From Sphingomicrobium lutaoense (GTDB lineage Bacteria; Pseudomonadota; Alphaproteobacteria; Sphingomonadales; Sphingomonadaceae): DNA of 64,000 nucleotides. Positions 17,028-53,421 of this stretch are shown in pieces. A model generated the notes under the pieces. That model did not search any database. It was not told the DNA's origin and saw only the letters and a list, made by a program, of their open reading frames with translations. The translations under genes and the position numbers were made by a program. The stretch lies in assembly GCF_014195685.1 (NCBI RefSeq), contig NZ_JACICF010000001.1:218992-282991 (forward strand). The letters run 5' to 3'. The stretch's first letter is position 1. Each line of letters starts with the position of its first letter.

Positions 17028-17048
17028 AGCCCGCTCACCGGCAGGCTC

Positions 17049-17124
17049 GGGGCTGTAGCTCAGTTGGGAGAGCGCTGCAATCGCACTGCAGAGGTCGGGG
17101 GTTCGAATCCCCCTAGCTCCACCA
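17049..17124 (+). tRNA. tRNA-Ala (anticodon CGC), integration target
   Basis: A 76-base cloverleaf with encoded CCA (17122-17124). Acceptor stem GGGGCTG pairs with TAGCTCC and includes the G3:U70 wobble that specifies alanine. Anticodon stem CTGCA/TGCAG encloses loop ATCGCAC with anticodon CGC (reads GCG). T-arm GGGGG-TTCGAAT-CCCCC is perfect. The last 15 bases of the gene plus 10 further bases are repeated at 28758-28782, marking the tRNA 3' end as an attachment site. The gene itself is complete at the left end of the island. Confidence 0.95.
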
Positions 17125-17134
17125 GCCTGCCGGT
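17110..17134. repeat. attL-like copy of the 25-bp direct repeat
   Basis: Starts within the T-arm of tRNA-Ala, runs through CCCCTAGCTCCACCA and ten further bases ending in CGGT. Identical to 28758-28782. Integration into the tRNA 3' end restores the gene, as is common for tyrosine recombinases. Confidence 0.85.
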
Positions 17135-17170
17135 ATTTTCGATGGAAATCCGCGATTAGTTTGGCTGGAT

Positions 17171-17200
17171 GTCTAACTCGCCCGGTAGTGGTTAGACAAT
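17171..17200. repeat. Left-end GTTAGAC repeats (possible arm-type sites)
   Basis: The heptamer GTTAGAC occurs inverted at 17171-17177 and direct at 17191-17197, the latter within GGTTAGACAAT (17190-17200). The same 11-mer occurs near the right end at 28661-28671, with a variant at 28714-28724. Position inside each att site is what integrase or excisionase arm sites would show; this is inference. The rest of 17135-17488 holds no recognisable gene. Confidence 0.35.
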
Positions 17201-17488
17201 CTTTCGCCCGATTGACTTCTTCAATCCCAAAGCGCCCGTCGCGCCCTGTTGTAAACTGGGCTGATAACTGGCCGTCCACTTGCAGCGCTGGGCATCAATG
17301 TCCATTCGGCCGGCGCTATCCCAAAATGTCCGCCAACGAGCCTATTGCGGACGTGGGTTGCAGGGTGGGAAAGAGCGAAATTAGCCTTTCGCCATCAACG
17401 TGGTCCTTAACGGCGTCATTAATTTCTGTTAACTAAGTGCCGCTCGATAAACATCTAAGGATGGAATGTGAAAACATAGGAGCAGGTC

Positions 17489-18475
17489 ATGATAAGCACT
17501 CCTAGGTATGCGTTCTCGCTTCTTGCAGCCAGCGTGTTGATTTCAACCGCAGTCGCGGCGGCGCCTCCCCCAGATCGTGGCGGTGGTGGAGGTAAAGGCA
17601 AAGGCGGTGATGATCCGGCTGAAGCATTTGAGCCTGCTTACGTCCACACACGTTCGGGAAGACCTCCGACCCTCGTTCTCGCCAATCGAGATTTTAGTGC
17701 CACAGGCACCATAAGTGTCGTGAGCGACGCTCGGTCCAGAGGGTTGGATCATGCACCAGACGAAGGTCGCACGCTTACCGAAGAGCACAGAGCTCTGTGG
17801 GAAACCCGATATACGATGGCCGAGGACGGTGCGATTACCGTTATTGACCGGACTTTGCTGCATGACGGGGAAAATAGTGCGGCCAGAGTCCATTGCATCG
17901 CGACAGCTGCTAACGGTGCTAGAGCATACTCGCTAAATTCTACGACAGGCGGGGAATTGAAGATCAAGACAGCTTCTGGCGAGAACCTCACTTATTATAA
18001 TGTCGGCGTAATAGACTCCTGCGACTATTTTGGTGATGGTTCGAGGCTCGCCGCTATCAAGAATCTTCCAGGCGCCGAGGGCTTTGAGCTGGTTACGATA
18101 GATGTGGCTACTGGCGCACAGACCTTGTTGCTTACGGTCAAGGATGAAGGGCTGGATCTGGACGAGGTGGAGGTCGCGCGTGATGGTCAGTCTTTTCTGC
18201 TAAGCTGGACTGACCGTCGAGACTCTACTGCGGTTCCATTAATCAGCGAGTGGAGAGCAGGCGAAACTCTATTGGAAGGCACCGTTATCGCCTACGAAGC
18301 CAGCCAAGGCAGCTACATATGCGATTTCAACTCAAATAATTTGCCAGATGACGGATACGTCTACCGAAGTAGTGCGGGGAGGCACCCTACTTGGATAGAA
18401 CAAGTAGACGGCGAACCCAAAGTGCTGATCGAAAAAATGAAAGGCGACGTTTATCGTCTCAAGCCCGCTTGCTAG
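17489..18475 (+). CDS. Secreted TolB/PD40-like protein of unknown function
   Basis: Protein of 328 residues with a Sec signal peptide (ending near STAVAAAPPP) followed by a Gly/Lys-rich spacer (RGGGGGKGKGGDD). The rest looks like repeated beta strands of a TolB/PD40-type propeller: YVHTRSGRPPTLVLANRDFS, then GTISVVS, later RDGQSFLLSWTDRRD. Four cysteines (in RVHCIA, DSCDYF, SYICDF and the C-terminal KPAC) could form disulfides in the periplasm. GGAG precedes ATG 17489. Its layout resembles that of the gene at 24782 at the other side of the island. Less GC-rich than the host genes. Function unknown. Confidence 0.7.
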   Translation: MISTPRYAFSLLAASVLISTAVAAAPPPDRGGGGGKGKGGDDPAEAFEPAYVHTRSGRPPTLVLANRDFSATGTISVVSDARSRGLDHAPDEGRTLTEEHRALWETRYTMAEDGAITVIDRTLLHDGENSAARVHCIATAANGARAYSLNSTTGGELKIKTASGENLTYYNVGVIDSCDYFGDGSRLAAIKNLPGAEGFELVTIDVATGAQTLLLTVKDEGLDLDEVEVARDGQSFLLSWTDRRDSTAVPLISEWRAGETLLEGTVIAYEASQGSYICDFNSNNLPDDGYVYRSSAGRHPTWIEQVDGEPKVLIEKMKGDVYRLKPAC

Positions 18476-18572
18476 AGTGTGAAAGCTCGGCCTCTCGCAC
18501 GCCCCTGGTGCAGGGCTTGCCTTGGATGCTGAGAACCGCGGCACCTCAAACGTCCGCTTTCCACGCTCGAAG

Positions 18573-18603
18573 TGGACGCCAGCAGGCTGAAGGCTGGCGT
18601 CCA
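18573..18603. terminator. 11-bp perfect hairpin (possible terminator)
   Basis: Stem 18573-18583 with 18593-18603, 9-base loop, about 100 bases after the stop of the gene ending at 18475. No T-run follows on either strand, so it may instead be a leftover repeat. It lies next to the remnant junction at 18620. Confidence 0.35.
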
Positions 18604-18619
18604 TATTCAGTTAAATCTC

Positions 18620-18664
18620 CATTGCCAACCCCAAGACAATGAACGCAAATTCGCCTGCCTGAGC
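18620..18664 (-). pseudogene. 45-bp Kef-antiporter gene fragment
   Basis: Read on the minus strand, this segment encodes AQAGEFAFIVLGLAM, nearly the same as AQAGEFAFIVVGLAM in the Kef-type gene at 23649-23693. The two 45-base stretches differ at only about four positions. It is fused, in a different frame, to the broken amidohydrolase. This shows that a second Kef-like gene once lay here or that a fragment was copied. Confidence 0.65.
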
Positions 18665-18978
18665 GCTGCTAGGATTTTCGCCTGTAGTTGCTTGAGGTCT
18701 GGCCAGACTTCGGCTTCAGGGAAGAAATGGAAGAGTGGCGCGGGAGCATTTTTTGGGCAAGGCCGCTTAACCCCCACCAGGATATTGTCTCCGATCTTGT
18801 CCCAAGTCCTGATCTCTTCAAAGGACGTCGCCGTGACCACAGCCGATTTCACGTTGTGCTCTGATATTTCCCCACGAGATCTCGAGCGCGCGCCTTCAGT
18901 ATCGCTCCAAGGCCAATTGCCGTGTTGATGAACATCGAAGACCGGAGAGGCCAAACTTAGACGAAGAGCACTGATCAC
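18665..18978 (-). pseudogene. Truncated amidohydrolase (N-terminal fragment only)
   Basis: About 105 codons that match the start of an amidohydrolase_2-type protein: the metal-binding VFDVHQHGNW, then HNVKSAVVTATSFEEIRTW, KIGDNILVGVKRPCP and VWPDLKQLQAKI. A complete enzyme of this family has about 300-400 residues; here the coding sequence stops making sense at about 18665 and the frame closes at 18607 in foreign sequence. The remaining two thirds, including other metal ligands, are absent. ATG 18978 may still be translated into a dead fragment. It lies in the otherwise gene-free stretch 18476-19163 of the island; no transposon is seen at the break. Confidence 0.65.
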
Positions 18979-19163
18979 ACCAGCACTCTACTTTGGGTAA
19001 GTGTTTAATCGAGGCGCGGGGGGGCGGGATTAAGATTCCAATATGACATATGCGTAGACGCGCCCACGTTTACGGTAGTCCGCAAATCAGAGGCTAGTTT
19101 GGCCTGTCCATTCTTCGAGTGCCTTTAACGATCCGGTAAAAAGTTGCTTACTAAGAGGTCGCC

Positions 19164-21218
19164 GTGAAGTTCCAGCGTACCCGCACCGGATTTTGGACGA
19201 AAAAGCTCTCTGACACTCCTACTCTGGAGGTCGAGCGGGCTCATCGACTGATGAGCTATGCCGAAGAATTTGAGGATCGGTGGTTCTGGGAAACAGACGC
19301 TGAAGGGCGCCTCACCTATCTCTCTAAGAATGTTGCTGAACAAATTGAGATGTTCGGCATCAAAACAATCGGAGAGCCACTAGCAAGCGTCTTTCGTCTC
19401 GACCAGGGCGACGCTCAACATTCTCGCTCCCTAAATTTCCACATCGTGTCGCGCACATCCTTCTCAAATTACCCCGTTCGTGGGGTTAGGGGACTGAGCG
19501 AAAGCTGGTGGTCAATGTCGGGGAGGCCGTGGTTCGACAACGACGGCGAGCTTAAAGGCTTTGTAGGTTCCGGCACGGACCTAACCAAAACGCGCAAACA
19601 AGAAGCGACCATCAGGCGTTTGGCGTTAACGGATAGCCTGACAGGGCTGGCGAACCGGCAGCAGATGCAAGACAACCTGTCAGGGTTGCTCAACGGGTCT
19701 CTACGCACGAAACCTCTATGCGCTCTGATGATGCTCGATCTCGACGGCTTCAAGGGAGTGAACGACACATTAGGTCATCCTGTGGGTGACTCACTTCTTA
19801 TCCAAGTGGCCGAAAGGCTATCTTCTGCAGTCGCGGAAGTGGGAATTGTCGGCCGCTTGGGGGGAGACGAATTTCAAATCCTTGTCCTGGAGGACCGCAG
19901 CAGAGAAAGTCTGTCGCGGCTTGGATTTAAGATAATCGATGAGATTTCAGCGCCCTACTCTGTGGACGGATATTCGATCACCATTAGCTGTTCCATCGGA
20001 ATCTCTCTCGCTGACGCGGATAGCAACCCTGAAACACTTGTGAGAAACGCAGATATTGCCCTTTACGCTGCCAAGGCTAGCGGAAGAGCAACCTGTTTCT
20101 TTTTCGAGGACGAAATGCTGGCTAACGCCCAGCGCCGAAAGAAGCTGGAAGACGACCTAAGAACCGCTCTCAGCTCGGATCAGTTCAAGCTGATGTATCA
20201 GCCCATAGTAGCAACGCAATCAGAAGAGCTGACTGGCTTTGAGGCTTTGTTGCGGTGGACGCACCCTACCGAGGGAGACATTGCCCCAAGCGAGTTCATA
20301 CCTGTTGCTGAAGACTGCGGCCTGATCCAGCAGATCGGTGATTGGGTCATTAGGAGCGCGACCCGCATTATCGCAGAGTTACCGGAAGACCTCCGCGTGG
20401 CCGTAAATGTCTCGGCAATTCAGTTCTCGAATCCAACATTGCTTTCTACGCTGGCTAACGCAATCGCCGAGAGTCAGATCGACCCTTCACGGCTTGAGCT
20501 GGAGATCACCGAAAGCGTCTTTGTCGACAACGAAGGCAGATCCGAAAAAACTTTCCGTGCGCTGAAAGATTTGGGTGTGAGGCTTGCTCTCGACGATTTT
20601 GGGACAGGTTATTCGAGTTTGTCCTATTTGCAGGATACCCCCTTCGACAAAATCAAGATCGACCAAAGCTTCGTTAGAGGTGCAGTGGATCCTAGGAGCA
20701 GGAACTCTGCGATCATTGAATCGATCGTCGCGCTATCGAAGGCACTGAATATGGAGACAACCGCTGAGGGCGTGGAACATCAGGATGAGATTGAACTGAT
20801 CCGAAAGCTCGGATGTAGCCACATCCAAGGATATGTTTATGGGCCCGCCATGGACATAACTGACATCATCCCGAAGTTAAGAACCGGCTCTAGGAAGATG
20901 CCCGCAATCGGTCCAAAACGAAGCCGCAGCCCTCGGATGAGCCTCGTTCGCAGCACAATGATGACCTTAAACCAAGACCGAAAGCCGGTAGTGGTTAGGA
21001 ATATTTCGGAAACCGGGGCGCTGCTCGATCAAGTTGGCGATACAACGGAGATGTTGGGCGTCACGGTCCTACTCGACCTGCTCCAACATAAGTTATCTGA
21101 AGCTAAAGTCCGGTGGGTGGGAGATGGACGCGCCGGGGTCGAGTTTCATGAACCGATCTCATTGAAAGACGTCGAGGCAAGAAAAGACGGCTTCTCCAGC
21201 ACGCGCCAAAGCGCTTGA
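19164..21218 (+). CDS. PAS-GGDEF-EAL-PilZ cyclic-di-GMP protein
   Basis: Soluble signalling protein of 684 residues. PAS-like sensor at about 30-150 (WFWETDAEGRLTYLS), GGDEF domain at about 150-315 with an intact GGDEF and DSLTGLANR, EAL domain at about 325-575 with GFEALLRW, NVSAIQF, ELEITES, DDFGTGYSSLSYL and AEGVEH, and a C-terminal PilZ domain at about 585-670 with RNISETG. Catalytic motifs for both synthesis and breakdown of c-di-GMP look intact, and PilZ would bind it, so output may be self-regulated. There are no membrane segments. It sits in the island upstream of a separate small PilZ gene on the same strand. The start has no strong Shine-Dalgarno. Confidence 0.92.
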   Translation: MKFQRTRTGFWTKKLSDTPTLEVERAHRLMSYAEEFEDRWFWETDAEGRLTYLSKNVAEQIEMFGIKTIGEPLASVFRLDQGDAQHSRSLNFHIVSRTSFSNYPVRGVRGLSESWWSMSGRPWFDNDGELKGFVGSGTDLTKTRKQEATIRRLALTDSLTGLANRQQMQDNLSGLLNGSLRTKPLCALMMLDLDGFKGVNDTLGHPVGDSLLIQVAERLSSAVAEVGIVGRLGGDEFQILVLEDRSRESLSRLGFKIIDEISAPYSVDGYSITISCSIGISLADADSNPETLVRNADIALYAAKASGRATCFFFEDEMLANAQRRKKLEDDLRTALSSDQFKLMYQPIVATQSEELTGFEALLRWTHPTEGDIAPSEFIPVAEDCGLIQQIGDWVIRSATRIIAELPEDLRVAVNVSAIQFSNPTLLSTLANAIAESQIDPSRLELEITESVFVDNEGRSEKTFRALKDLGVRLALDDFGTGYSSLSYLQDTPFDKIKIDQSFVRGAVDPRSRNSAIIESIVALSKALNMETTAEGVEHQDEIELIRKLGCSHIQGYVYGPAMDITDIIPKLRTGSRKMPAIGPKRSRSPRMSLVRSTMMTLNQDRKPVVVRNISETGALLDQVGDTTEMLGVTVLLDLLQHKLSEAKVRWVGDGRAGVEFHEPISLKDVEARKDGFSSTRQSA

Positions 21219-21454
21219 AAGATTTGATCATGAAGGGTGGCTCCGATTCACCGGATTGTTCGCATTAGACTGACGGTAGCCTTATCCACGAGCCTGAATA
21301 AATGAAGCGAGCCCACTTAGGAGGGCGGCTCGTTCCGTCGCTGTTGATGAACTTAGTGGGAATGAGCGGTCGACCAGATTTACCGAATTCCGAGGTTGGA
21401 AAACGCCATACTCCATCCGACATTCCCCCTGTCTGATCACGAAAACTGGGTTGC

Positions 21455-21727
21455 ATGAACCTCGATCGAAGAGTGCCAAGACGCCCATTTATGCCGACTG
21501 CAGAGGTTCGCGAACCCGGAGCGCGTCCTCAAAGCCTTAAAGTGTTGGATGTTAGCGAGTTTGGTTGCCGAGTCTCGCTCGTTAATCGCGTAAAACTCGA
21601 CACGAAGGTATTCGTCAGAATTCCAGGGATTGAAGCGATCCCCGTCTGGTCGGTCGCAGGGCGCCACCTCAATTCGGCTCGCCTATTACCAGCATGTCAA
21701 TGGGCAACGCTCGCAGCAAGGAGTTAG
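21455..21727 (+). CDS. Small PilZ-domain protein, possibly frameshifted at the 3' end
   Basis: Open frame of 90 residues with the c-di-GMP-binding signatures of PilZ: RRVPRR (arginine motif, residues 5-10) and LDVSEFG (DxSxxG). After VWSV (21644-21655) the usual PilZ ending is missing in this frame, but another frame reads RRAPPQFGSPI, which resembles the expected last strand, so a one-base shift is likely. The present end overlaps the convergent Usp gene by 59 bases. The start lacks a clear ribosome site. It may be an intact short protein, but a decaying gene is equally plausible. The 236 bases upstream (21219-21454) show nothing recognisable. Confidence 0.55.
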   Translation: MNLDRRVPRRPFMPTAEVREPGARPQSLKVLDVSEFGCRVSLVNRVKLDTKVFVRIPGIEAIPVWSVAGRHLNSARLLPACQWATLAARS

Positions 21728-22487
21728 CCGTGCTTCCGATTATAGCCCGCCGAAGTCGGGATTCTCCCTGGTTGCCAAGCACTAATAAGTCAGCCCCACT
21801 GTTCAGAATATCATTTTGTAGAACCGTCCCCGCGCCACCGTACACCAATTGTGTAGTTACACGCTTTCGCGCATCTGAGCTAAGCTCATTCAGAATTTTT
21901 TCGAACAATCCTTTGTAAAATTTTGCGGCGCCATGTCGTGCAGTTTCCCTGTTTTGCCATCGTTCGAACGGCACCTCGAAGGCGTGAATTAATTGAAAAT
22001 CCGCGTCGTCAAACAGACCCATGGCCTTTTTAAACGCTTCGAGCGAAGGAGGGTGAAAGTCCGTCGCGCACGCGACGTTCGCGTAACATCGTGTTGCCCT
22101 GTTTTTTGCCACAAGCACGGGGACGGGTGAGCGGCAGATGACATGCTCTACCACGGTTCCTAACAAGAACTCTTTCACCCCGCGAGACCGTGCCAAGCCC
22201 AAGACAATTAGACGGGCGTCTTCTTCCTGAGCAACGCTGATGACGCCATCGGCGGCACACTGACGTGGATATCTAAACCTAATACCATTATTTTGCTGGG
22301 GAAGCACCGAACGCATGCGCTCATCAAGAATATTTTGCGGAGGCGGCTCCGTGACCGCATGACCAAGGGCGTGCACAAGCACGACTTCTGCGTTCCACTT
22401 CTCGCCTAACTTCACTGCTCGATCGATTGCCCGATCAGCCTCCGCGCGAAAATCGGTACCAACGACAATCTTTCCGTTAGTGGCCAA
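21669..22487 (-). CDS. Tandem universal stress protein (UspA family)
   Basis: Cytoplasmic protein of 272 residues with two Usp domains. Domain 1 (about 5-125) begins KIVVGTDF and ends with GTVVEHVICRSPVPVLVAK, an ATP-binding-type G-2x-G-like loop variant. Domain 2 (about 135-272) begins ANVACATDFHPPS and ends LLVLGNQGESRLRRAIIGST, then a SLLRALPIDMLVIG tail with the typical G-rich loop. Divergent from the Kef-type antiporter at 22605, about 117 bases apart, which suggests shared control and a regulatory partnership. The 3' end overlaps the PilZ frame. A second, unrelated Usp lies at 31956-32801. Confidence 0.88.
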   Translation of the reverse strand: MATNGKIVVGTDFRAEADRAIDRAVKLGEKWNAEVVLVHALGHAVTEPPPQNILDERMRSVLPQQNNGIRFRYPRQCAADGVISVAQEEDARLIVLGLARSRGVKEFLLGTVVEHVICRSPVPVLVAKNRATRCYANVACATDFHPPSLEAFKKAMGLFDDADFQLIHAFEVPFERWQNRETARHGAAKFYKGLFEKILNELSSDARKRVTTQLVYGGAGTVLQNDILNSGADLLVLGNQGESRLRRAIIGSTANSLLRALPIDMLVIGEPN

Positions 22488-22604
22488 TTCTCGCTCCGCG
22501 TTCGCCAGCTACAATAACCAAACTTAACATCTGAGGTCTTGTCGCACAATTTTCCTCAGGCGCAGCTATCGACAAGCTACACGGTATCTCGGATGCTCAA
22601 GGCA

Positions 22605-24326
22605 ATGGAATCGCAATTGCATATCCCTTACCTCCGAGAGGTCATTGTCTTCCTGATAATTGCCGGGTTTGTTGTGCCTCTTCTCCAGAGGCGGTTTAGT
22701 GCGGTACTCGGCTATCTGCTCATCGGTGGATTGATCGGTCCGTTTGGACTAGGTTTGTTTGCCGACAAGTTTCCCCTCGTCTCCGTTGTGGTCATCGACG
22801 ACCCGGAGGGGGTTCGGGCGCTGGCCGAGATCGGCGTCGTCTTTCTGCTATTCGCAATTGGCCTTGAATTGTCGCTCGACCGGCTATGGTCCTTGCGAAG
22901 GCTCGTGTTCGGCCTTGGAAGCGCGCAAGTTATATCAACGAGTATACTTATCGCAGGCGTAGCCTACGCTTGGGGGAATTCCGGTTCAGCAGCACTCGTT
23001 TTGGGCTCCTGTCTTGCACTATCCTCGACTGCTATTGTCACACAGTTGCTGATCGAAAAGGGCAGGCTGACAACCCCCCTCGGACGGTCGGTTTTCTCAG
23101 TTCTACTACTGCAGGATCTAGCGGTTGTTCCAATCCTTTTTGTCGTCGGTGTCCTCGGCACTGTATCAGTGGGCCAAAGCGTCCTGGGAGGCTTGGTTGT
23201 AGCGTTATCGGAAGCCGCGTTGACGGTAGTGATAATCTATCTTGTAGGAAGGGTAATCCTTCGGCCCATTTATCGCACCGTCGCCCTGACTGGCAGCCGC
23301 GAGGCGTTCATGGCTATGATCCTCTTAACGGCATTAGGTACAGCGGCAACTACGGGCATGGTCGGCCTATCAATGGCGCTCGGAGCATTTTTAGCGGGTT
23401 TGCTAATCGCCGAGACCGAATATCGACACCAGGTCGAAGTCGACATTGAGCCATTTAAAGGACTGATGCTCGGACTTTTCTTCATGTCGGTCGGGATGGG
23501 CATCGACTGGCGAGTCCTAGGAGACTCCCCAGTCTTGATTGCCGCATCGGTCATTGGCTTGATAGCGATCAAGGCTGCAATAAACATTGGGCTATTCCTG
23601 CTTTGGCGTATACCCACAAACCGTGCAGTGGAGGGCGGACTGCTTCTCGCTCAAGCAGGCGAGTTCGCGTTCATTGTCGTGGGGTTGGCAATGACGCTCG
23701 CTCTGATCCCGGATTCAACCGGGCAATTTATGCTGATTGTCGCTAGCCTTTCCATGATCCTGACACCCAGCATAGCAGCTATAGCGCGTACACTGAGCCA
23801 GAGGATCAAGGGAAGCAGTTGGTCAAGCCAAGTAGACACGACTGATCACGCCGAGCACCTTGAAGATCACATCGTGATTGCAGGCTTTGGAAGAGTGGGG
23901 CAAATGATCGCGTCCATTCTCGCACGAGAAGGTCTCGCCTGCCTGGCTATTGACAAAGATCCTACCGTGGCGGCTGAGGGACGATCTGCTGGTCTGCCCG
24001 TGCGCTTTGGAGACGCATCTCGCCTAGAGGTATTGCACAGCGCACACATTAAGCGGGCAAGCGCACTGGTCATTACACTCGACCAGCAGGAACAAACCGA
24101 GACCCTAACTGCCCGAATGCGGGAAGTTGCGCCCCACGTTCCTCTGTTCGTACGCGCGCGTGACGAGGCTCAGGCGGAGGTGCTGATCCGTGCGGGGGCA
24201 ACGGCAGCCGTCCAAGAGACCGTCGAAGCAAGTCTCCAGCTCGCGGCTAAGGTATTGGAAGGCTTTGGCCTGGACCAAAACGCGATTAGGCAGCGCCTCC
24301 AAGGCGGTAAAAATGCCCGCGAGTAG
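22605..24326 (+). CDS. Kef-type K+/H+ (cation/proton) antiporter with RCK/TrkA-N domain
   Basis: Membrane transporter of about 573 residues in the CPA2 (KefB/KefC) family. About 12 hydrophobic helices fill residues 5-395, with motifs VLGYLLIGGLIGPFG, FLLFAIGLELS, ALSSTAIVTQLL, LLLQDLAVVPILF and ALGAFLAGLLIAETEYRHQ. The C-terminus is an RCK/TrkA-N domain (from HIVIAGFGRVGQMIA), which binds nucleotide. It probably exports K+ in exchange for H+ under electrophile or pH stress. Start codons at 22539 (TTG), 22593 and 22605 (ATG) are possible; I chose MESQLHIPYLREV as the usual family start. Divergent from a Usp gene. Part of its sequence recurs at 18620-18664. Confidence 0.9.
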   Translation: MESQLHIPYLREVIVFLIIAGFVVPLLQRRFSAVLGYLLIGGLIGPFGLGLFADKFPLVSVVVIDDPEGVRALAEIGVVFLLFAIGLELSLDRLWSLRRLVFGLGSAQVISTSILIAGVAYAWGNSGSAALVLGSCLALSSTAIVTQLLIEKGRLTTPLGRSVFSVLLLQDLAVVPILFVVGVLGTVSVGQSVLGGLVVALSEAALTVVIIYLVGRVILRPIYRTVALTGSREAFMAMILLTALGTAATTGMVGLSMALGAFLAGLLIAETEYRHQVEVDIEPFKGLMLGLFFMSVGMGIDWRVLGDSPVLIAASVIGLIAIKAAINIGLFLLWRIPTNRAVEGGLLLAQAGEFAFIVVGLAMTLALIPDSTGQFMLIVASLSMILTPSIAAIARTLSQRIKGSSWSSQVDTTDHAEHLEDHIVIAGFGRVGQMIASILAREGLACLAIDKDPTVAAEGRSAGLPVRFGDASRLEVLHSAHIKRASALVITLDQQEQTETLTARMREVAPHVPLFVRARDEAQAEVLIRAGATAAVQETVEASLQLAAKVLEGFGLDQNAIRQRLQGGKNARE

Positions 24327-24722
24327 GATTGGCAGAGCTTAGCAAACCGTTTGAGCGGCAGCGCGCAGGAGATACCCGCTTCTTGATTCTGCAGTTTCTG
24401 CGTACAAGACGATTCGAAAAGGCTCTAGGAAAGCAGGGGGCAGCCGATGAGCAACGGCAATTGGTGGAGCAACCGAAATTGTTGAAAGCTCGGATCTTTC
24501 GTAGCGCTATTCATTTGAGGCCAGTCATCTAGATTGCGTTGTCCGTAGAAAGTGCCTGACTAGGGCCAATGTCCCGATGTCATTGCGTGAATTGGGTGCC
24601 GTCTCGGTCCCGACGGACAGCTAAAGCTTGGCTATGATCACTACCAATCGAGCTCACACCTGCCCGCACGCGCAATTACGATTCTGCTATTTTGGTCAAC
24701 AATCTGGGTGTATAAACCTCAT
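24327..24722. other. Gene-free stretch in the island
   Basis: Between the antiporter stop and the hairpin at 24723 I see no credible gene; the short open frames on either strand have no motifs or ribosome sites. It might hold the promoter for the next gene or old remnants. Confidence 0.5.
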
Positions 24723-24740
24723 CGACTCCGCAAGGAGTCG
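24723..24740 (+). terminator. GNRA hairpin with downstream T-run
   Basis: Perfect 7-bp stem (24723-24729 with 24734-24740) closed by a GCAA tetraloop. A T-run (24752-24756) follows after 11 bases. It lies about 40 bases before the ATG of the gene at 24782, so it is either a terminator for upstream transcription or a 5' leader hairpin. Confidence 0.45.
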
Positions 24741-24781
24741 GGTTCTTCGGGTTTTTGAAACATCGTCCGTGGAGGCGTCAT

Positions 24782-25675
24782 ATGTTTCGGTTGCTCGGTT
24801 GCGCCGCTCTCGCGGCATTTCTCGTTAATCCTGCCAACGCACAATCGGGCGGACCTCCGATAGCTTACACCAAGGTAGATGGATCCTCGATGTCCATTTA
24901 CCTGACGAACCCCAACGGAAGCGGCACTGTCAGGCTGTACACCACCCCTCGAAAGGCCAGTATCGGAGCGCTGGATCTTAAGCCTGGGGGTGGAGAGGTC
25001 GCAATTGTCGAGAGAGCTGGGAGCGTTATCTCGCTTAAACTGCTCAGCTACAATGACAACGGATCGCTAATCGGATCGCCAAGAGTGATTCCGACATCCT
25101 GCGTAGCGACCAAGGTCGACTATCAGCCGATCAGCAGCGACCCACTCCTACTCGTTACGGAGAGCTGCGTTGATGGCTCGAAAATCAGCACCGTTCGGCG
25201 TGATGGGACCGGGTACCAGACGGTGATGGAAACCGTGTCCAATCCAATCCTTGATCATGCCCGGTGGCTCCACGACGGCAGCAACTTTATCTATGTGCTG
25301 TTTGAGGCCTCGCCTTCCTCGGTGCCGTACAAGTTGTGCCGCCTGGACTGTGTGGAGAGCGCAGGAAACCTTTTGTGGACGTCCAATACCGATCTCAGCT
25401 GGGTCGATGTTGCCCGGACATCGAACACGGTCCTCTTCACAGCGGGAGTGTCAACGACAGGCGTTTACATTCATAGGCTCAACATCGACACCGGTGAAAT
25501 ATTGAAGACCTTTATTCACGGAACCGACGGTCATTTTTCACCTGACGATCGCAAGGTGCTTTACGAGACGCCCTATGCGGCAAAGGGCACATACCTGGAC
25601 ATTCACGACACCATGGGTCCCAGTGCTCGGATTACGCCGAAGGGAGACTACGGACCGAAGGACTGGAGGCTTTAA
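24782..25675 (+). CDS. Secreted TolB/PD40-like protein of unknown function
   Basis: Protein of 297 residues with a clear Sec signal peptide (MFRLLGCAALAAFLVNPANA). The mature part looks like a beta-propeller of TolB/PD40 type: PPIAYTKVDG, IYLTNPNGSG, DHARWLHDGSNFIYV and DGHFSPDDRKVLYETPY near the end. ATG 24782 is chosen because GGAGG lies at 24771-24775 and the signal peptide starts there; an earlier in-frame start at 24755 would add a charged leader and is less likely. Five cysteines suggest a periplasmic or exported place. Resembles the gene at 17489 in plan, with weak sequence likeness at the first strands. Function unknown. Confidence 0.72.
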   Translation: MFRLLGCAALAAFLVNPANAQSGGPPIAYTKVDGSSMSIYLTNPNGSGTVRLYTTPRKASIGALDLKPGGGEVAIVERAGSVISLKLLSYNDNGSLIGSPRVIPTSCVATKVDYQPISSDPLLLVTESCVDGSKISTVRRDGTGYQTVMETVSNPILDHARWLHDGSNFIYVLFEASPSSVPYKLCRLDCVESAGNLLWTSNTDLSWVDVARTSNTVLFTAGVSTTGVYIHRLNIDTGEILKTFIHGTDGHFSPDDRKVLYETPYAAKGTYLDIHDTMGPSARITPKGDYGPKDWRL

Positions 25676-25693
25676 CCCGACCTATTCGCAGAA

Positions 25694-25763
25694 ACTGACG
25701 CGCAGCCAGTCAGCCCCCGACTGAATGCTGCCACCCCGCCAGCATCAAACGCTGCGCGTCAGT
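25694..25763. repeat. 13-bp inverted repeat after the PD40-like gene
   Basis: ACTGACGCGCAGC (25694-25706) is repeated in inverse at 25751-25763, spaced 44 bases, with CTTTTT a few bases later. It could act as a terminator for the gene ending at 25675. The rest of 25676-25974 shows nothing recognisable. Confidence 0.45.
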
Positions 25764-25766
25764 CTT
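25752..25766 (+). repeat. 15-bp direct repeat, copy 1 (before HWE kinase gene)
   Basis: CTGCGCGTCAGTCTT, identical to 27469-27483. The two copies bracket the HWE kinase gene. Copy 2 begins 4 bases after that gene's stop. Confidence 0.5.
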
Positions 25767-25974
25767 GCATCTTTTTCCGCGAACCGCCGGAGATTGGCAC
25801 GCTGAGCCGGCCCTCGTCTTTGCCAAGCATCGAGGGGCTTTGGCCAAATTCGCGCATCTGTCACGGTTTTAGTCGCGGCGGCAGCGGCCGGCTTTCGTTC
25901 TGCCATCCCAGCGTTTTCATTTGCTTTGCTTGTGGCCCGCGTTTTCCCTAAATCCGATCATGAAGGGTGATGAG

Positions 25975-27465
25975 ATGGACAAATCGCTGCTCGACCTACG
26001 CCACGGGCCAGTCTCAATGGACACGGCAATCGAGATGCTGGCTGCGAGCGCCGAGCTTTTGGGCGAGGCAGTTTTTCCAGCGTTAGTCGAAGGCATAGCG
26101 AAGTCGCTTGGAATGCAATGGGTCTTTCTTAGTCGGCCTTCAAACAACGCGCCGACCCAAGCACATACGATAGCTGTTTGGCACGACGGATCTGCACCAA
26201 ACCTTTCGTACGAGTTGCCCGGTTCTCCATGCGCTGTTGTCGTTGGGGATGGCGCTTGTTGCTATCCATCCGACGTACAATCGCTCTTTCCGGAAGACGA
26301 ACTGCTAAGCCAGATGGGTGCGGTGAGCTATGTGGGCATCCCCTTGCGGTCGTCGGAAGGCGAGGTCATCGGCCTCCTCGCAGCGCTGGGCGACGCGCCG
26401 ATTGAAAATGTCAAAATCGCTCAGGATATTCTGGCGTTGTTCGCAGGACGCGCGGCCTCGGAACTTGAACGCATTGACGCGTCATCCGCAAATGAGCGGC
26501 TGGGCAGGATAGTCGATGGATCTCTCAGTGAAGCGTACGTATTCGACGGCGATACCTACAGGTTTGAGCTAGTGAACCGTGGGGCGCGGGAGAATCTCGG
26601 CTACAGTCTGCCAGAATTGCACGCTCTCACACCGTGGGACATCAAACCGGAATATAGCGAGGCACAATTTCGTCAGTTCGTTGAGCCTCTCAAAAGCGGC
26701 GCGCTGCCGTACTTGCAGTTCGAAACAGTTCATAAACGGAAGGACGGCTCCCTTTACGACGTTCACGTCCGCCTTCAGTACTTCGGTGGCACTGACAACA
26801 TATTCTTTGCGTCAATTGACGACATTACCGAGCGCAAGATGGCTGAGGAGCGCGAGAGACTACTCATGCGCGAAGTGAACCACAGAGCCAAAAATCTACT
26901 CAGCATTATCCAGGTGCTTGCCAGACAAACCATCACACCTGGTTCAGAAGATGGCATTGGGCGATTTGAAGATCGCCTCGGAGCCTTGTCCGCCAGCTAT
27001 GACCTGCTCGTAGACAGCCCTCGCAAAGGCGTGAAGCTAAAAGACCTAGTTCATGCGCAACTTGGTCATTTCGACCACTTGTTTGACACCAGAATCAAGG
27101 TGCATGGCCCAGTTGTCTGTCTCAAACCGTCCGCAGCGCAGAGCATCGGAATGGCTTTGCACGAGCTGGCCACAAACGCTGCTAAGTATGGTTCACTTTC
27201 CAATGAAAGCGGCGAGGTGGATATACGTTGGAGCATTAAAAACGGCGCAGAGGGCGCTCCGACCTTGACCTTAAGATGGACGGAAAGCGGAGGACCATCA
27301 ACGACTCCCCCGTCGCGGACAGGATTTGGCTCCACACTTATCGAAAGCTCGCTTCGCGCGAGCACGCGAGGCCAAGTAGAGTTGCTCTTCGCAGAAAGTG
27401 GTGTGCGTTTTGCGTTGCGTGCAGACTTGTCGGCAGTATCGGACGGGCAGATAACCGAGGACTAG
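25975..27465 (+). CDS. GAF-PAS-HWE-family histidine kinase
   Basis: Soluble kinase of 496 residues. GAF-like domain at about 15-165, PAS domain at about 170-295 (LSEAYVFDGDTYRFELVN), then the HWE kinase core: the H-box REVNHRAKNLLSIIQVLARQ with phospho-acceptor His, HELATNAAKYG (N-box), the WxE motif in LTLRWTESGGP and GFGSTLIESS. HWE kinases often lack a linked response regulator, and some feed the PhyR general stress pathway; none is encoded nearby. ATG 25975 is chosen because AAGGG lies 7 bases upstream. The gene is bracketed by a 15-bp repeat. Confidence 0.9.
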   Translation: MDKSLLDLRHGPVSMDTAIEMLAASAELLGEAVFPALVEGIAKSLGMQWVFLSRPSNNAPTQAHTIAVWHDGSAPNLSYELPGSPCAVVVGDGACCYPSDVQSLFPEDELLSQMGAVSYVGIPLRSSEGEVIGLLAALGDAPIENVKIAQDILALFAGRAASELERIDASSANERLGRIVDGSLSEAYVFDGDTYRFELVNRGARENLGYSLPELHALTPWDIKPEYSEAQFRQFVEPLKSGALPYLQFETVHKRKDGSLYDVHVRLQYFGGTDNIFFASIDDITERKMAEERERLLMREVNHRAKNLLSIIQVLARQTITPGSEDGIGRFEDRLGALSASYDLLVDSPRKGVKLKDLVHAQLGHFDHLFDTRIKVHGPVVCLKPSAAQSIGMALHELATNAAKYGSLSNESGEVDIRWSIKNGAEGAPTLTLRWTESGGPSTTPPSRTGFGSTLIESSLRASTRGQVELLFAESGVRFALRADLSAVSDGQITED

Positions 27466-27468
27466 TTT

Positions 27469-27483
27469 CTGCGCGTCAGTCTT
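27469..27483 (+). repeat. 15-bp direct repeat, copy 2 (after HWE kinase gene)
   Basis: Same 15 bases as 25752-25766. It starts 4 bases past the kinase stop codon. The remainder of 27484-27676 is gene-free with no recognised site. Confidence 0.5.
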
Positions 27484-27676
27484 ACGATCGCTTTCAAAAT
27501 CCTCGCTGCACGCTCCGTTTCAGCAGATCGCCATCCGTGCAGGCTTTATTGGCTGCATGAGTTATCTGATCTGGGACACGAAAAGCTTGGAGCGGGAGCG
27601 AACTTCCCGGTGCCACAGATAGAACCCATTTTCCTGCGCCTAAGTGACTTTTCGCAGTGAACCGCAGGGCAAAGCG

Positions 27677-28510
27677 TCAGGTTGTCGCAGCCTGGGCTCC
27701 GCTGCTGACCTTCGCCACCGGCCGCTTGCCCGCAATCCAGCCGGCCCAGCTCGTTGCCACACCCAGCGCGAAGCCTGCGCCAACGATCAGCCAAGAAGGC
27801 ATCGCGTTTATCTCCAGCAACACGCCCTTCAACCACCCGACGTCTTTAGTCGTCCCCATAGTGACCATCTGCGCAATGATGAAGGCGCCCGCCACGAGGA
27901 ACGGCGTCGCTTTTTCGCGATAGCGCCACCAGATGGCGGCGATGAAGGCGAGTTCGATCGCCATGCCGGTGAGGATCGCGTCCATCACCAAGTGAAAATC
28001 GTCTGGTCCGCGGATCTGCAGCGGCGGGAAGAAGCCATTCAGGACGCGCCCGAACGGGCTTTCGAATAGGATGATCGGAGTCGTCAGCATGTAGCCCGAG
28101 TGTATCCACACCTTCCGGCGATATTTGAGCGCTCGAAAATAAACCGTGACGTATGCCGCGACCGCGACCACCAGACCGATGACGAAAGGCGCCGCGAACA
28201 TACTGCGCACATCAACCGCGCCCGGCACGTAATTCTTCCCCGAAAAATCGATGATCGCGAAAAGGCCCGCGATGAGGAAGGGGAACAGCAGCAGGCTTGC
28301 TCGCCCGGAAAGCCGGTGCACCGGCAACCGCTTATTGTGCGCGGTCCAACTTTGCGTGAAAACCAAGATCACCCAGATGCTCGCCGCCACACCATGCGCA
28401 TGGAACTGCCACGGCACCTCGGTGAATGGGCGCCAGTAACTCGGCCAGAAGCCGAGCAGAATTACGCCGATTACGAAAAGGACCCACCAGTGCGCGCGTG
28501 GATAAGGCAT
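27677..28510 (-). CDS. Multi-pass membrane protein of unknown function (DUF2306-like)
   Basis: Inner-membrane protein of 277 residues with about seven hydrophobic helices and no signal peptide beyond the first helix (WWVLFVIGVILLGFWPSYW). Conserved-looking histidines lie at helix ends: WQFHAHGVAASIW, PVHRLSGRAS and VWIHSGYML. This spacing resembles DUF2306-type membrane proteins and might bind a metal or haem, but that is inference. It is on the opposite strand to the HWE kinase and is the last gene in the island before the right att copy. It looks somewhat more GC-rich than the other cargo. Function unknown. Confidence 0.75.
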   Translation of the reverse strand: MPYPRAHWWVLFVIGVILLGFWPSYWRPFTEVPWQFHAHGVAASIWVILVFTQSWTAHNKRLPVHRLSGRASLLLFPFLIAGLFAIIDFSGKNYVPGAVDVRSMFAAPFVIGLVVAVAAYVTVYFRALKYRRKVWIHSGYMLTTPIILFESPFGRVLNGFFPPLQIRGPDDFHLVMDAILTGMAIELAFIAAIWWRYREKATPFLVAGAFIIAQMVTMGTTKDVGWLKGVLLEINAMPSWLIVGAGFALGVATSWAGWIAGKRPVAKVSSGAQAATT

Positions 28511-28660
28511 TGCAGTATCCCCCCCTGCTAATGATCAGCTCACTTAGCATGCATTAACAAAATTGCCTGCATGCGTCCAAGCCCGGAATGTGAGCAAGAG
28601 ATAGTTTATCGAACGTCTCGAATTGGCCAACAATGTCGAGGACGGCACGAGCTTCGAAAA

Positions 28661-28724
28661 GGTTAGACAATTTTTTCGGGTCGCGAGGGGGCCTTTTTGG
28701 GCAAAAGCGGGTAGGTTAGACCAT
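28661..28724. repeat. Right-end GTTAGAC repeats (possible arm-type sites)
   Basis: GGTTAGACAAT at 28661-28671 matches 17190-17200 exactly; a variant GGTTAGACCAT is at 28714-28724. Both lie just inside the right att copy. The whole stretch 28511-28757 holds no gene. Confidence 0.35.
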
Positions 28725-28757
28725 CTAAGTAATTGATCCTATTGGGTTAGGGATAGA

Positions 28758-28782
28758 CCCCTAGCTCCACCAGCCTGCCGGT
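28758..28782. repeat. attR-like copy of the 25-bp direct repeat
   Basis: Identical to 17110-17134, including the last 15 bases of tRNA-Ala, but no tRNA body precedes it. Marks the right border of the island. Confidence 0.85.
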
Positions 28783-28903: not shown

Positions 28904-31639
28904 TTACCACATGAAGCGGGCACGGATGTAATAGCTGCCACCGTTGAAGCCGTAAGGCGAAGTGACGGCATATTGCGCACCCGCGATCCCCGCCCAAGGG
29001 TTGCGCGTCGGATAGGTGTCGAACAGGTTCTGCGCCCCTGCCGCGATTTCCAGTCCGTCGATCACTTCATAGCCAAGTTCGGCATCGACGGTCACACGCG
29101 CTTTCGCATCGATCGGCAGCGTGCCATCGTCGAGATGGGCTTCGTAGAAGCTGCCGAAATAATTGGCGCGCAGCAGGCCGCGCATGCGTCCCTGTTCATG
29201 CGTCAGGTTTAGGAAGCCCTTCCAGTTGGGAAGATTTTCCTCGAGCTGGCGGATGCGCGTCGCCGAGATGGTGGCATCGGCATCCTTCACCTTGGTGTCG
29301 GTATAGTTGATCGCCAGCGTCGCCTGGGTGGTGGCGCCATCCACGAAGGGAAGGCGGGCATTGGCCACAAAGTCGATGCCCTGGGTCCGCGTGTCGAACG
29401 CATTGTTGAAGAAGGCGAACGAGGTGAGATCCTCGAAACCGGTGAAGTCACCCCGATTGATAACCCCTGCGGTCGACAGTTCGGCCAGCAGGCCCGCCGT
29501 CGTCGTGCTCGTCACAGGAACCCCTTCGCGTGCTGCTAGGTATAGCAGCGCATCGGTGAAGTTGATCGTCGACGAGCGCGAGATGCGGTCTTTTAGCGTG
29601 ATGTTGAAATAGTCGAGCGTGAAAGTGACATCACCAAAGTCGCCCGCGACACCCGCGGTGAAGCTGTCGGCTTCTTCGGGGCCGAGCGTGGGCCGGGCTA
29701 GACCGAGGCCACCATTGGCCGTCGAATCCGCGACATAGTCGGCCACGATCAGGCCCGCCGGGCTGAACAGCGGGAAGGTGCCTTCATCCTGCAACATGCC
29801 GTTGGAGAATTGCGTCGTCACGTTGATGACGTTCGCCTGTCCAGCCGTCGGCACATGGAAGCCGGTCGAATAGGTGCTCCGCACCCGGAAGCTGTCGGAA
29901 ATCTTGTAGAGACCGCCCAGTTTCCAGCTGAGATTGTCGCCGAAGGTCTTGGTGTCCTCGTAGCGAAGCGCGCCCTGCAGGGTCACCGTATCGGCAAGGT
30001 CGGCCTCCACATCGAGATAGGCCGCCTTGGTATCCTCGGTGGCCGAACCCGCCGCATTGTTCGAGAAGCCGCCAAAGCCGTTCGAACTGGTCGAGAAGCC
30101 CTGTCCGAAGGGGAAGGCTGCCGTCGGCTGGGCAAGCGGTCCCAGCGCGAAGGATTCCGGATCGCCAGCGATCGTCGTGAAGGTCTCGTCGCGATATTCG
30201 GCACCGGCGGCGACATACATGCTGCCCGTGCTGCCCAGCGAGACTTCATGACCAAGGTTGAGGTTCACGAGATTCTCGGCCTGGCGATAGCCGCCCGGAT
30301 TGAACGAGGTCGGCGTGTTGGGGCCAAGCGATGCGTTGATCGTATTGTTGATGAAGAAATCGACGCGGTTCTTGCCGTAGCGATAGCTCAGGTCGAAATC
30401 GAGCCCGCCAAGCACCTGCCCGCGCACCCCCGTCGCGACCGAGAAATCCCTGAGGTCGCCGCCGAAGCGCGGGGTAAAGCCGCCCGGGAATAGTTCGACG
30501 AAGGAGAAGCAGTTCGGATCGGCTGACACTGCTGCAAGGATCGTCGGATCGGGAATGAGTCCGTTGGTCCCTGTCAGCGGAATGCCTGCGGGGCAATCCC
30601 CGGCCGTGGTGTTCGACATATCGCCGACAAGGACCGAAGGGACGCCATTGGGATCGGCAAAGCCGGTCACCGGATCGACGAGCGGGCCCGCATAGACGCC
30701 GCCGCGATTGGTCGGATTACGGAAGAAGAAGCCGCCATCGACATTACGCTCGGCATAATTGCCGAAGGCGTAGAGCGTGAGGTTCGGGGTGAAATCGATC
30801 CCGAAATTGGCAAATGTCTTGAAGTCGTCATTGACGTTGGGTTGGCCCCAGATCTGCGCCGGGTCGGCCACCGCCGTATTGCCCGCCGCGATCAGCGCCG
30901 CTGCATCGTCGCGCTGGACCGATCGGCTGGTGGCATCGGACTCGCCATATTCTGCGCTGAGGTTGAGGAAGCCGTTGTCAGTGATCGGCAGGCCGACATT
31001 GGCCCCGATCTGGTAGAGATCGCCATCCCCTTCATAGGTCGAGCCCCATTTGGCGGTGAACATGCCCCCGTCGGAATCGTCCTTGATGATGAAGTTCATC
31101 ACGCCCGCGATGGCGTCCGAACCATATTGCGAGGAGGCGCCGTCGCGCAGCACTTCGAGCTGCTTGATCGCGATGGTCGGGATCGTCGACACGTCCGGGC
31201 CTTGCGAACCGTCCGAGATGCCGCCGCCAAGGAAGGCGATGACCGCGGCACGATGCATCCGCTTGCCGTTGACGAGAACCAGCGTGTTGTCGGGCGACAG
31301 GCCGCGAAGGTTGGCGGGCCGCACCAGCGTCGCCGCGTCCGAAATCGGCTGAGTGTTCACATTGAAGGAGGGAACCGCGATACGCAGCAGGTTGCTGACA
31401 TCGGTATCGGCCTGGTTGGTCAGCTCGTCCGAGGAAACGATATCGACGGGCGCCACCGTATCGGCGGCCGACCGGTTGGCCTGGCGTGTCCCAGTGATGA
31501 TGATCGCCTGGTTCTCTTCGATCTGGGCGGTGGTGCCGCTTTCCTGCGCGAGGGCTGGGGTGGCTGAGGCCATCCCGACGATCCCGCATAGCAATGCGGT
31601 GCGAATTTCCGTAGCGCGACGTGTGAAGCGAGTAGCCAT
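28904..31639 (-). CDS. TonB-dependent outer-membrane receptor
   Basis: Protein of about 911 residues with a signal peptide (RTALLCGIVGMASATPALAQ), a TonB box-like ENQAIIITGTRQ, a plug domain (about 45-175, with LRGLSPDNTLVLVNGKRM and GASSQYGSDAIAGVMNFI) and a large beta-barrel ending in the aromatic YYIRARFMW. It would import a bulky ligand using TonB energy; the substrate is unknown, with no neighbouring siderophore or sugar genes. ATG 31639 is chosen because the signal peptide starts there; it follows a G-rich site. The first gene beyond the right island border. The region 31640-31955 has no gene. Confidence 0.92.
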   Translation of the reverse strand: MATRFTRRATEIRTALLCGIVGMASATPALAQESGTTAQIEENQAIIITGTRQANRSAADTVAPVDIVSSDELTNQADTDVSNLLRIAVPSFNVNTQPISDAATLVRPANLRGLSPDNTLVLVNGKRMHRAAVIAFLGGGISDGSQGPDVSTIPTIAIKQLEVLRDGASSQYGSDAIAGVMNFIIKDDSDGGMFTAKWGSTYEGDGDLYQIGANVGLPITDNGFLNLSAEYGESDATSRSVQRDDAAALIAAGNTAVADPAQIWGQPNVNDDFKTFANFGIDFTPNLTLYAFGNYAERNVDGGFFFRNPTNRGGVYAGPLVDPVTGFADPNGVPSVLVGDMSNTTAGDCPAGIPLTGTNGLIPDPTILAAVSADPNCFSFVELFPGGFTPRFGGDLRDFSVATGVRGQVLGGLDFDLSYRYGKNRVDFFINNTINASLGPNTPTSFNPGGYRQAENLVNLNLGHEVSLGSTGSMYVAAGAEYRDETFTTIAGDPESFALGPLAQPTAAFPFGQGFSTSSNGFGGFSNNAAGSATEDTKAAYLDVEADLADTVTLQGALRYEDTKTFGDNLSWKLGGLYKISDSFRVRSTYSTGFHVPTAGQANVINVTTQFSNGMLQDEGTFPLFSPAGLIVADYVADSTANGGLGLARPTLGPEEADSFTAGVAGDFGDVTFTLDYFNITLKDRISRSSTINFTDALLYLAAREGVPVTSTTTAGLLAELSTAGVINRGDFTGFEDLTSFAFFNNAFDTRTQGIDFVANARLPFVDGATTQATLAINYTDTKVKDADATISATRIRQLEENLPNWKGFLNLTHEQGRMRGLLRANYFGSFYEAHLDDGTLPIDAKARVTVDAELGYEVIDGLEIAAGAQNLFDTYPTRNPWAGIAGAQYAVTSPYGFNGGSYYIRARFMW

Positions 31640-31955
31640 TTTTCCCCCCGAAATTATGTAAAACAGGGGGAGGTTGGCAGCAGTCCGGCAAGAGCGCCAG
31701 TGCGCCGGCCCGGTTTTCCGAAAACGGTTCGAGACTTGTTGCTGTTCTGCAACGAACATAGGTTAAGTAATGGCGCGGCTCCTCCCCAAGTTCGCATGAT
31801 TAAGCGCTTTTTCACTCGCTGATTGTGTCGAGCCCGATCCGTGTCCGATGAGCCACCATTGGCCCTCTTAGTAAGGCGGTAGCCGCTTTAGCCCGGCGAG
31901 CCCCAAGCTATTCTGGCAAGGCTATCGAACATGAACCCTATCGCGTGATCAGGTT
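31640..31955. other. Gene-free stretch upstream of the receptor
   Basis: About 316 bases between the receptor start and the Usp stop. No credible gene or RNA was seen. It must hold the receptor promoter, but no clear -35/-10 pair stood out. Confidence 0.5.
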
Positions 31956-53406: not shown

Positions 53407-53421
53407 GTTCGGAAAAAGGGT

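Follow-up and report, generated by a model that had tools for sequence, protein, structure and literature searches.

Cis-mobilizable elements (CIMEs) are elements without integration and transfer genes that have kept both of their attachment sites, attL and attR, according to an excerpt of PMC5704250. They are decayed derivatives of an integrative and conjugative element (ICE) or an integrative and mobilizable element (IME), and move by accretion with an incoming element that shares their specificity. Their prevalence in streptococci is suggested to be very high in the excerpted text of PMC7563491, which cites 215 CIMEs at tRNA-Lys in 303 Streptococcus agalactiae genomes and gives a size of 1.2-13 kb for the classical CIMEs of S. 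salivarius. Islands at tRNA genes that are bounded by att sites and lack an integrase are already known from other bacteria, and the one described here, behind tRNA-Ala(CGC) in Sphingomicrobium lutaoense, is a further example. It lies in a stretch of 64,000 nucleotides (the window; contig NZ_JACICF010000001.1, positions 218,992 to 282,991), and all positions below are those of the window unless another locus is named.

As CIMEs are portrayed in that excerpt of PMC7563491, the island resembles them in that the att sites are kept, the recombination and transfer genes are gone, cargo lies inside and the element is inserted at a gene's 3' end, which may be that of a tRNA gene. It differs from them in that no tandem partner element is seen at the site, and its descent from an ICE or IME, like its mobilization in cis, is putative. 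With the tRNA gene islands of Islander, as the excerpt of PMC4383910 presents them, it shares an intact tRNA at one end and a displaced 3' fragment at the other, but Islander requires an integrase gene in its candidates, so that the present island would be filtered out. Searches that demand an integrase in this way miss such islands. The ssrA islands of Dehalococcoides likewise lie between an RNA gene and a copy, 20 bp long, of its 3' end, and sixteen of them contain the integration module (PMC3146451, in the part excerpted). Unlike the window island, they are inserted at a tmRNA gene by a serine recombinase, and several of them stand in tandem.

The tRNA-Ala repeats and the empty site

The features that define the island and its right flank are the following.

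17049..17124, plus strand: tRNA-Ala(CGC), the integration target, intact after integration (ARAGORN)
17110..17134, plus strand: left repeat, attL core, tRNA nucleotides 62-76 and 10 nucleotides of trailer (exact 25-bp repeat)
28758..28782, plus strand: right repeat, attR core, displaced copy of the tRNA 3' end (exact 25-bp repeat)
28904..31759, minus strand: TonB-dependent-receptor-type gene (named by eye), chromosomal right flank, 91% (G001) and 89% (G034) amino acid identity in two relatives

A reading made earlier from the sequence alone (the sequence-only reading) had claimed a 25-bp direct repeat of the tRNA-Ala 3' end around about 11.6 kb, and this is borne out. The repeats are identical at 25/25 positions and on the same strand, start 11,648 bp apart, enclose 11,623 bp (17135..28757), and are the only two copies in the 2.08-Mb genome of two contigs, where no third copy was found at up to 3 mismatches. 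In a blastn search of the window with the tRNA plus 20 bases, the second copy of the 3' end was found at E = 1.6e-8, and therefore the repeat is not due to chance. An intact tRNA thus stands at one end of the block and a displaced 3' fragment in the same orientation at the other.

The tRNA is identical at 76/76 positions in eight relatives (G018, G002, G006, G013, G041, G047, G055 and G057). The 10 bases after the CCA end, which are common to both repeats, are present in 0/23 of the relatives displayed, and we infer from this that the donor of the element shared this trailer and was perhaps of the same species. It was also observed that the bases flanking the tRNA (17037-17046 and 17125-17134) are complementary over 10 bp (ACCGGCAGGC / GCCTGCCGGT), and a similar pairing of leader and trailer, with different bases, is seen in several relatives. 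We did not retain this pairing as a special feature; in energy it does not stand out from random pairs of this GC-rich window.

For the comparison of sites, the window proteins were compared with 18 fetched loci from 16 relatives. The empty tRNA-Ala site that the sequence-only reading had proposed to look for is seen in G001 and G034, where the gene that in the window is found beyond the right repeat comes straight after the tRNA. The stop codon of this flank gene lies 126 bp from the CCA end in G001 and 131 bp in G034; in the window it lies 131 bp from the CCA of the right repeat. Where relatives lack the TonB-type gene, the next flanking gene, which encodes a universal stress protein (Usp), comes after the tRNA. 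It lies within 53-96 bp in G006, G041 and G055 and within 0.8-1.0 kb in G018 and G002, and in the latter two something else may intervene.

DNA of the island was also looked for in 71 genomes of the genus, the window's own (G000) included, with no more than four candidates scored per genome. Parts of it were matched in 61 of the 70 relatives, in many cases to the GGDEF stretch. By-eye comparison placed none of the matches listed at the tRNA-Ala site in those of the 70 relatives where the site was placed, so cargo standing there without the repeat, which would have spoken against an island, was not seen among them. Apart from the flanking Usp genes, only one island-like match was seen at a site locus. 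It is in G040, where a GGDEF/EAL protein with 33% identity is encoded about 10 kb downstream of the tRNA, and it is taken for a distant paralogue.

The block had further been described as AT-richer, which is right for most of it but not for all. The GC content is 0.52-0.56 in 2-kb windows over 18001-28000 and 0.62-0.70 in those outside about 15-31 kb; between the repeats it drops from about 0.64 to 0.52-0.56, and the uniformity with the flanks that would have contradicted an island is not found. For GC at the third codon position, six island genes have values of 0.52-0.64 and 12 flanking genes values of 0.69-0.84; the seventh island gene (27677-28510) has 0.77. Six of the seven main genes are thus foreign-looking and the gene adjoining the right repeat is host-like; because of this native-like right-most gene the block is a mosaic and not uniformly AT-rich.

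It is likely that the island is a decayed, stranded, CIME-like element that was inserted at tRNA-Ala(CGC) by a tyrosine integrase which is now absent. The mobile element would have carried the tRNA-Ala 3' end in its attP, and the enzyme, in inserting it, would have rebuilt the tRNA and displaced the 25-bp copy to the far side. The integrase, which would have been of the tyrosine type and encoded on the element itself, and any transfer genes would later have been lost without a recognisable trace. What remained would be a cargo island between attL and attR, mobile only if an integrase of matching specificity enters the cell. As far as anatomy can tell, the label CIME-like appears to fit: attL and attR are both retained, as 25/25-bp repeats 11.6 kb apart with empty sites in relatives, and the integrase gene of an autonomous element is not there.

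The repeat and the island could have arisen otherwise, by homologous recombination, natural transformation or an error of assembly. The host-like composition of the right-most gene is in keeping with such an origin, and the island is known here from assembled sequence. The precise rebuilding of the target, the matching spacing of the empty sites and the hotspot pattern described below are, however, the signature of site-specific integration, and we regard these other origins as highly improbable.

The missing integrase

No recombinase was found in the main open reading frames of the island by Pfam, PHROGs or NCBIfam. The seven non-genic stretches of the island were also cut into 71 stop-to-stop pieces of at least 25 amino acids, each lying at least half within them, and scanned with Pfam; 11 families were matched at E values up to 1, none of them an integrase family. 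The best matches were PilZ (0.0011) and Exosortase_EpsH (0.0019), and a match to HTH_Tnp_IS630 (0.19) was taken for chance. A tblastn search of the island with three integrases gave only chance-level matches (best E 0.18). As a control, two of the three queries found the integrase locus at tRNA-Ser (7e-89 and 0.0), but the query from G038 did not (best 0.33). A hidden integrase inside the island is rejected on these three kinds of search, and the earlier statement that no recombinase gene is present there agrees with them. Nor were conjugation or mobilization families seen among the Pfam, PHROGs and NCBIfam matches of the reading frames or the Pfam matches of the 71 pieces.

The sequence-only reading had left it open whether the island is stranded or uses an integrase encoded elsewhere. 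In the whole genome PF00589 is matched at three places. Two of them, C1:346890 (a 293-amino-acid frame) and C1:1090345 (a 310-amino-acid frame), are read as XerD and XerC from their length, score and presence in relatives. The third, C2:458474, is an integrase of 396 amino acids with the domains Arm-DNA-bind_3, Phage_int_M and Phage_integrase, a set-up known as P4-type, and it starts 96 bp past tRNA-Ser(GCT). No PF00239 serine recombinase is found in the genome, and no enzyme with the 25-bp tRNA-Ala core was found in the assembly.

The P4-type enzyme at tRNA-Ser could in principle also serve the tRNA-Ala island. It has the same subfamily and domains as an integrase at tRNA-Ala in the relative G025 and is 45-47% identical to it, but it adjoins tRNA-Ser(GCT), which has a 3' end unlike the 25-bp core, and its 18.6-kb locus lacks the candidate arm motif described below. 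We find it most improbable that this or another enzyme of the genome serves the island, so of the two possibilities the stranded element is favoured. The tRNA-Ser gene with the integrase directly behind it lies at 9611-10990 of L071 (G000:C2:448000-466635), and the far end of this element was not found within that stretch by a 12-base exact search.

Close to the two repeats, short motifs recur on both sides.

17171..17200, plus strand: candidate arm-type sites on the left, tentative, an inverted GTTAGAC (17171) and GGTTAGACAAT (17190-17200)
28661..28721, plus strand: candidate arm-type sites on the right, tentative, GGTTAGACAAT (28661-28671) and GGTTAGAC (28714-28721)

In the window GGTTAGAC occurs only at 17190, 28661 and 28714, and its core GTTAGAC is inverted at 17171 and, far off, at 53420. 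Tentatively, the four motif copies close to the repeats are placed like the arm-type sites of an integrase. In the controls, four copies of a 7-mer were found for 55 of 2787 island pairs and 760 of 2958 whole-window pairs, three copies of an 8-mer for 98/2761 and 828/2950, and a shared 11-mer for 3.5% and 8.6% of the pairs, respectively. A search of IMG/VR with the core and the longer arm gave three matches, which were rejected, the surroundings showing no tRNA ends by eye.

Several observations weigh against a stranded element that has lost its integrase. No remnant of an integrase was detected, and the loss is thus deduced and not seen. There is no transfer gene or other sign of an ICE or IME origin, and one of the seven main genes (27677-28510) has a host-like composition. 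The candidate arm sites are weak, their recurrence being ordinary when compared with the whole window (760/2958), and the pattern of core and candidate arm is present in 0/396 other genomes of the family (397 searched), only in the window's own. A related complete element or a remnant of an ICE or IME was found neither in the genus nor in the 397 family genomes, the phage and plasmid collections or the 71 pieces.

The tRNA-Ala site and similar islands in the genus

The site was compared across the genus in G000 and 19 relatives by searching 15.7-38 kb per site for exact downstream copies of the tRNA 3' region (seed 13). A downstream copy was found at 6 of the 20 sites (G000, G013, G023, G025, G028 and G038), a count to be read with the non-random choice of relatives, since all of these except the window's own were chosen for a second tRNA fragment or an integrase beside the tRNA. 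More distant tRNA fragments, such as those in G029 and G040, were left out of the count, and larger islands are thus missed. The tRNA-Ala site is a hotspot.

Three of the islands contain a PF00589 match, that of G013 about 16 kb into the island and those of G025 and G038 next to the tRNA. The islands of G023 and G028, two genomes for which the listing of PF00589 matches is complete, have none and also lack PF00239; PF00239 is present in the G025 island. Three of the six repeat-bounded islands at tRNA-Ala, the window's included, are thus without a match to either family. The two others without an integrase, of 12 and 37 kb, were observed in L038 (G028) and in L040 and L041 (G023). The sequence-only reading had regarded the missing enzyme as the unusual part, and this does not hold up; islands at the same tRNA in G023 and G028 are without a recombinase as well, and CIMEs are suggested to be very prevalent in streptococci in the excerpt of PMC7563491. 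Islands that keep their att sites but carry no integrase are nothing out of the ordinary at a busy tRNA site.

The repeats also differ in where they start. In G013, G023, G028 and G038 they start at tRNA nucleotides 26-30, and in G025 (nucleotides 63-80, 18 bp) and in the window (nucleotide 62 to 10 bases past the CCA end) they cover only the tRNA 3' end. The G025 island thus uses the same tRNA gene and a similarly placed short repeat, but is unlike that of the window in its shorter repeat, in having an integrase beside attL and in having a serine recombinase near the right repeat. The integrase is P4-type (Arm-DNA-bind_3, Phage_int_M, Phage_integrase), and by analogy with it the lost integrase of the window island was perhaps P4-type too. 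The serine recombinase of G025 is a frame of 623 amino acids at 17290-19161 of L075 (G025:C42), the P4-type tyrosine integrase being at the left end of the island.

It is also conceivable that the element never had an integrase but was a non-autonomous satellite with att sites, moved in trans by the integrases of passing elements. The lack of any integrase trace in the island would be explained by this, the 25-bp repeat is still perfect, and neither the tRNA-Ala islands of G023 and G028 nor a tRNA-Gly island in G047 has PF00589 or PF00239. However, no integrase with the 25-bp core was found in the genome, the island had no megablast match in the phage and plasmid collections, no IMG/VR contig has 22 of the 25 core bases, and the loss of an integrase is the simpler history. 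We therefore consider such a satellite unlikely, though less so than the other alternatives to a stranded element.

Homologues of the window island's HWE kinase, with 61-67% amino acid identity, are encoded at other loci in G001, G034, G047 and G057; G024 has a weaker match that is split. The G047 kinase is 65% identical and sits in a low-GC block of about 10 kb at 6608-16785 of L135 (G047:C1:1711000-1730900). This block has tRNA-Gly(CCC) at one end and, at the other, a 40-bp exact copy of the tRNA-Gly 5' half; it also encodes MASE1-PAS-GGDEF and CHASE2-EAL proteins, and PF00589 and PF00239 gave no match in it. No tRNA bounds were seen within 38-100 kb at the other four kinase loci. A link to tRNA-Met was tried and rejected, the kinase lying about 7 kb past the last tRNA-Met fragment in G034 and about 6 kb from such a fragment in G001, and thus not being bounded. 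A tandem island array was observed in G034:C1:1152001-1251900 (L137, L138, L133, L139 and L140 joined) at 11218-43353, where a tRNA-Met is followed by three exact but partial copies of its 3' half, at 37520 (51 bp), 38715 (35 bp) and 43308 (46 bp).

One could imagine that the genus has a class of integrase-less, tRNA-flanked islands of ~10-12 kb with HWE kinase and cyclic di-GMP (c-di-GMP) genes, which are non-autonomous and move between tRNA genes with borrowed integrases. We hold this to be very unlikely; the bounded HWE kinase loci, the window's included, are 2 of 6 and too few for claiming a class. The cargo described below and the parallel in G047 offer a modest lead, open to testing, on the spread of signalling genes in this group.

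Cargo genes

Between the repeats the island has the following content.

17489..18475, plus strand: hypothetical protein of 328 amino acids with an apparent signal peptide (by eye)
18476..19163: gene-poor stretch with a 46-bp inverted Kef-type gene fragment
19164..21218, plus strand: PAS-GGDEF-EAL protein, c-di-GMP signalling, with a sub-threshold PilZ match at its end (Pfam)
21455..21727, plus strand: short PilZ-like reading frame (Pfam E 8.8e-4, 20 bits, below the curated cut-off of 22.5)
21669..22487, minus strand: universal stress protein with two Usp stretches (Pfam PF00582)
22539..24326, plus strand: KefB/KefC-like cation/proton antiporter, Na_H_Exchanger and TrkA-N domain (Pfam)
24755..25675, plus strand: hypothetical protein of 306 amino acids, mostly strands in a low-confidence model
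25921..27465, plus strand: GAF-PAS-HWE histidine kinase (Pfam)
27677..28510, minus strand: hypothetical protein of 277 amino acids with host-like composition, a membrane protein by appearance

Pfam, PHROGs, NCBIfam and PADLOC gave nothing for the 328-amino-acid protein at the thresholds applied, and a match over part of its length was found in 3 of 297 other genomes. Single-sequence structure models of this and the 306-amino-acid protein had a mean predicted local distance difference test score of 33 and 41, respectively; the first was uninformative and the second of low confidence. For the 277-amino-acid protein, a first scan of the genome contigs confirmed no relative; similar DNA is present at other places in several relatives. 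The NCBIfam matches of the Kef-type antiporter were under the curated cut-offs.

Judging from the domains, the island most likely holds passive cargo for c-di-GMP turnover, for ion/proton antiport alongside a stress protein, and for sensing by an HWE kinase, which may form a stress and signalling module. The fragment in the gene-poor stretch (18620-18665) is an inverted copy, 46 bp at 91%, of 23648-23693 in the antiporter gene, which shows internal rearrangement or decay of the island.

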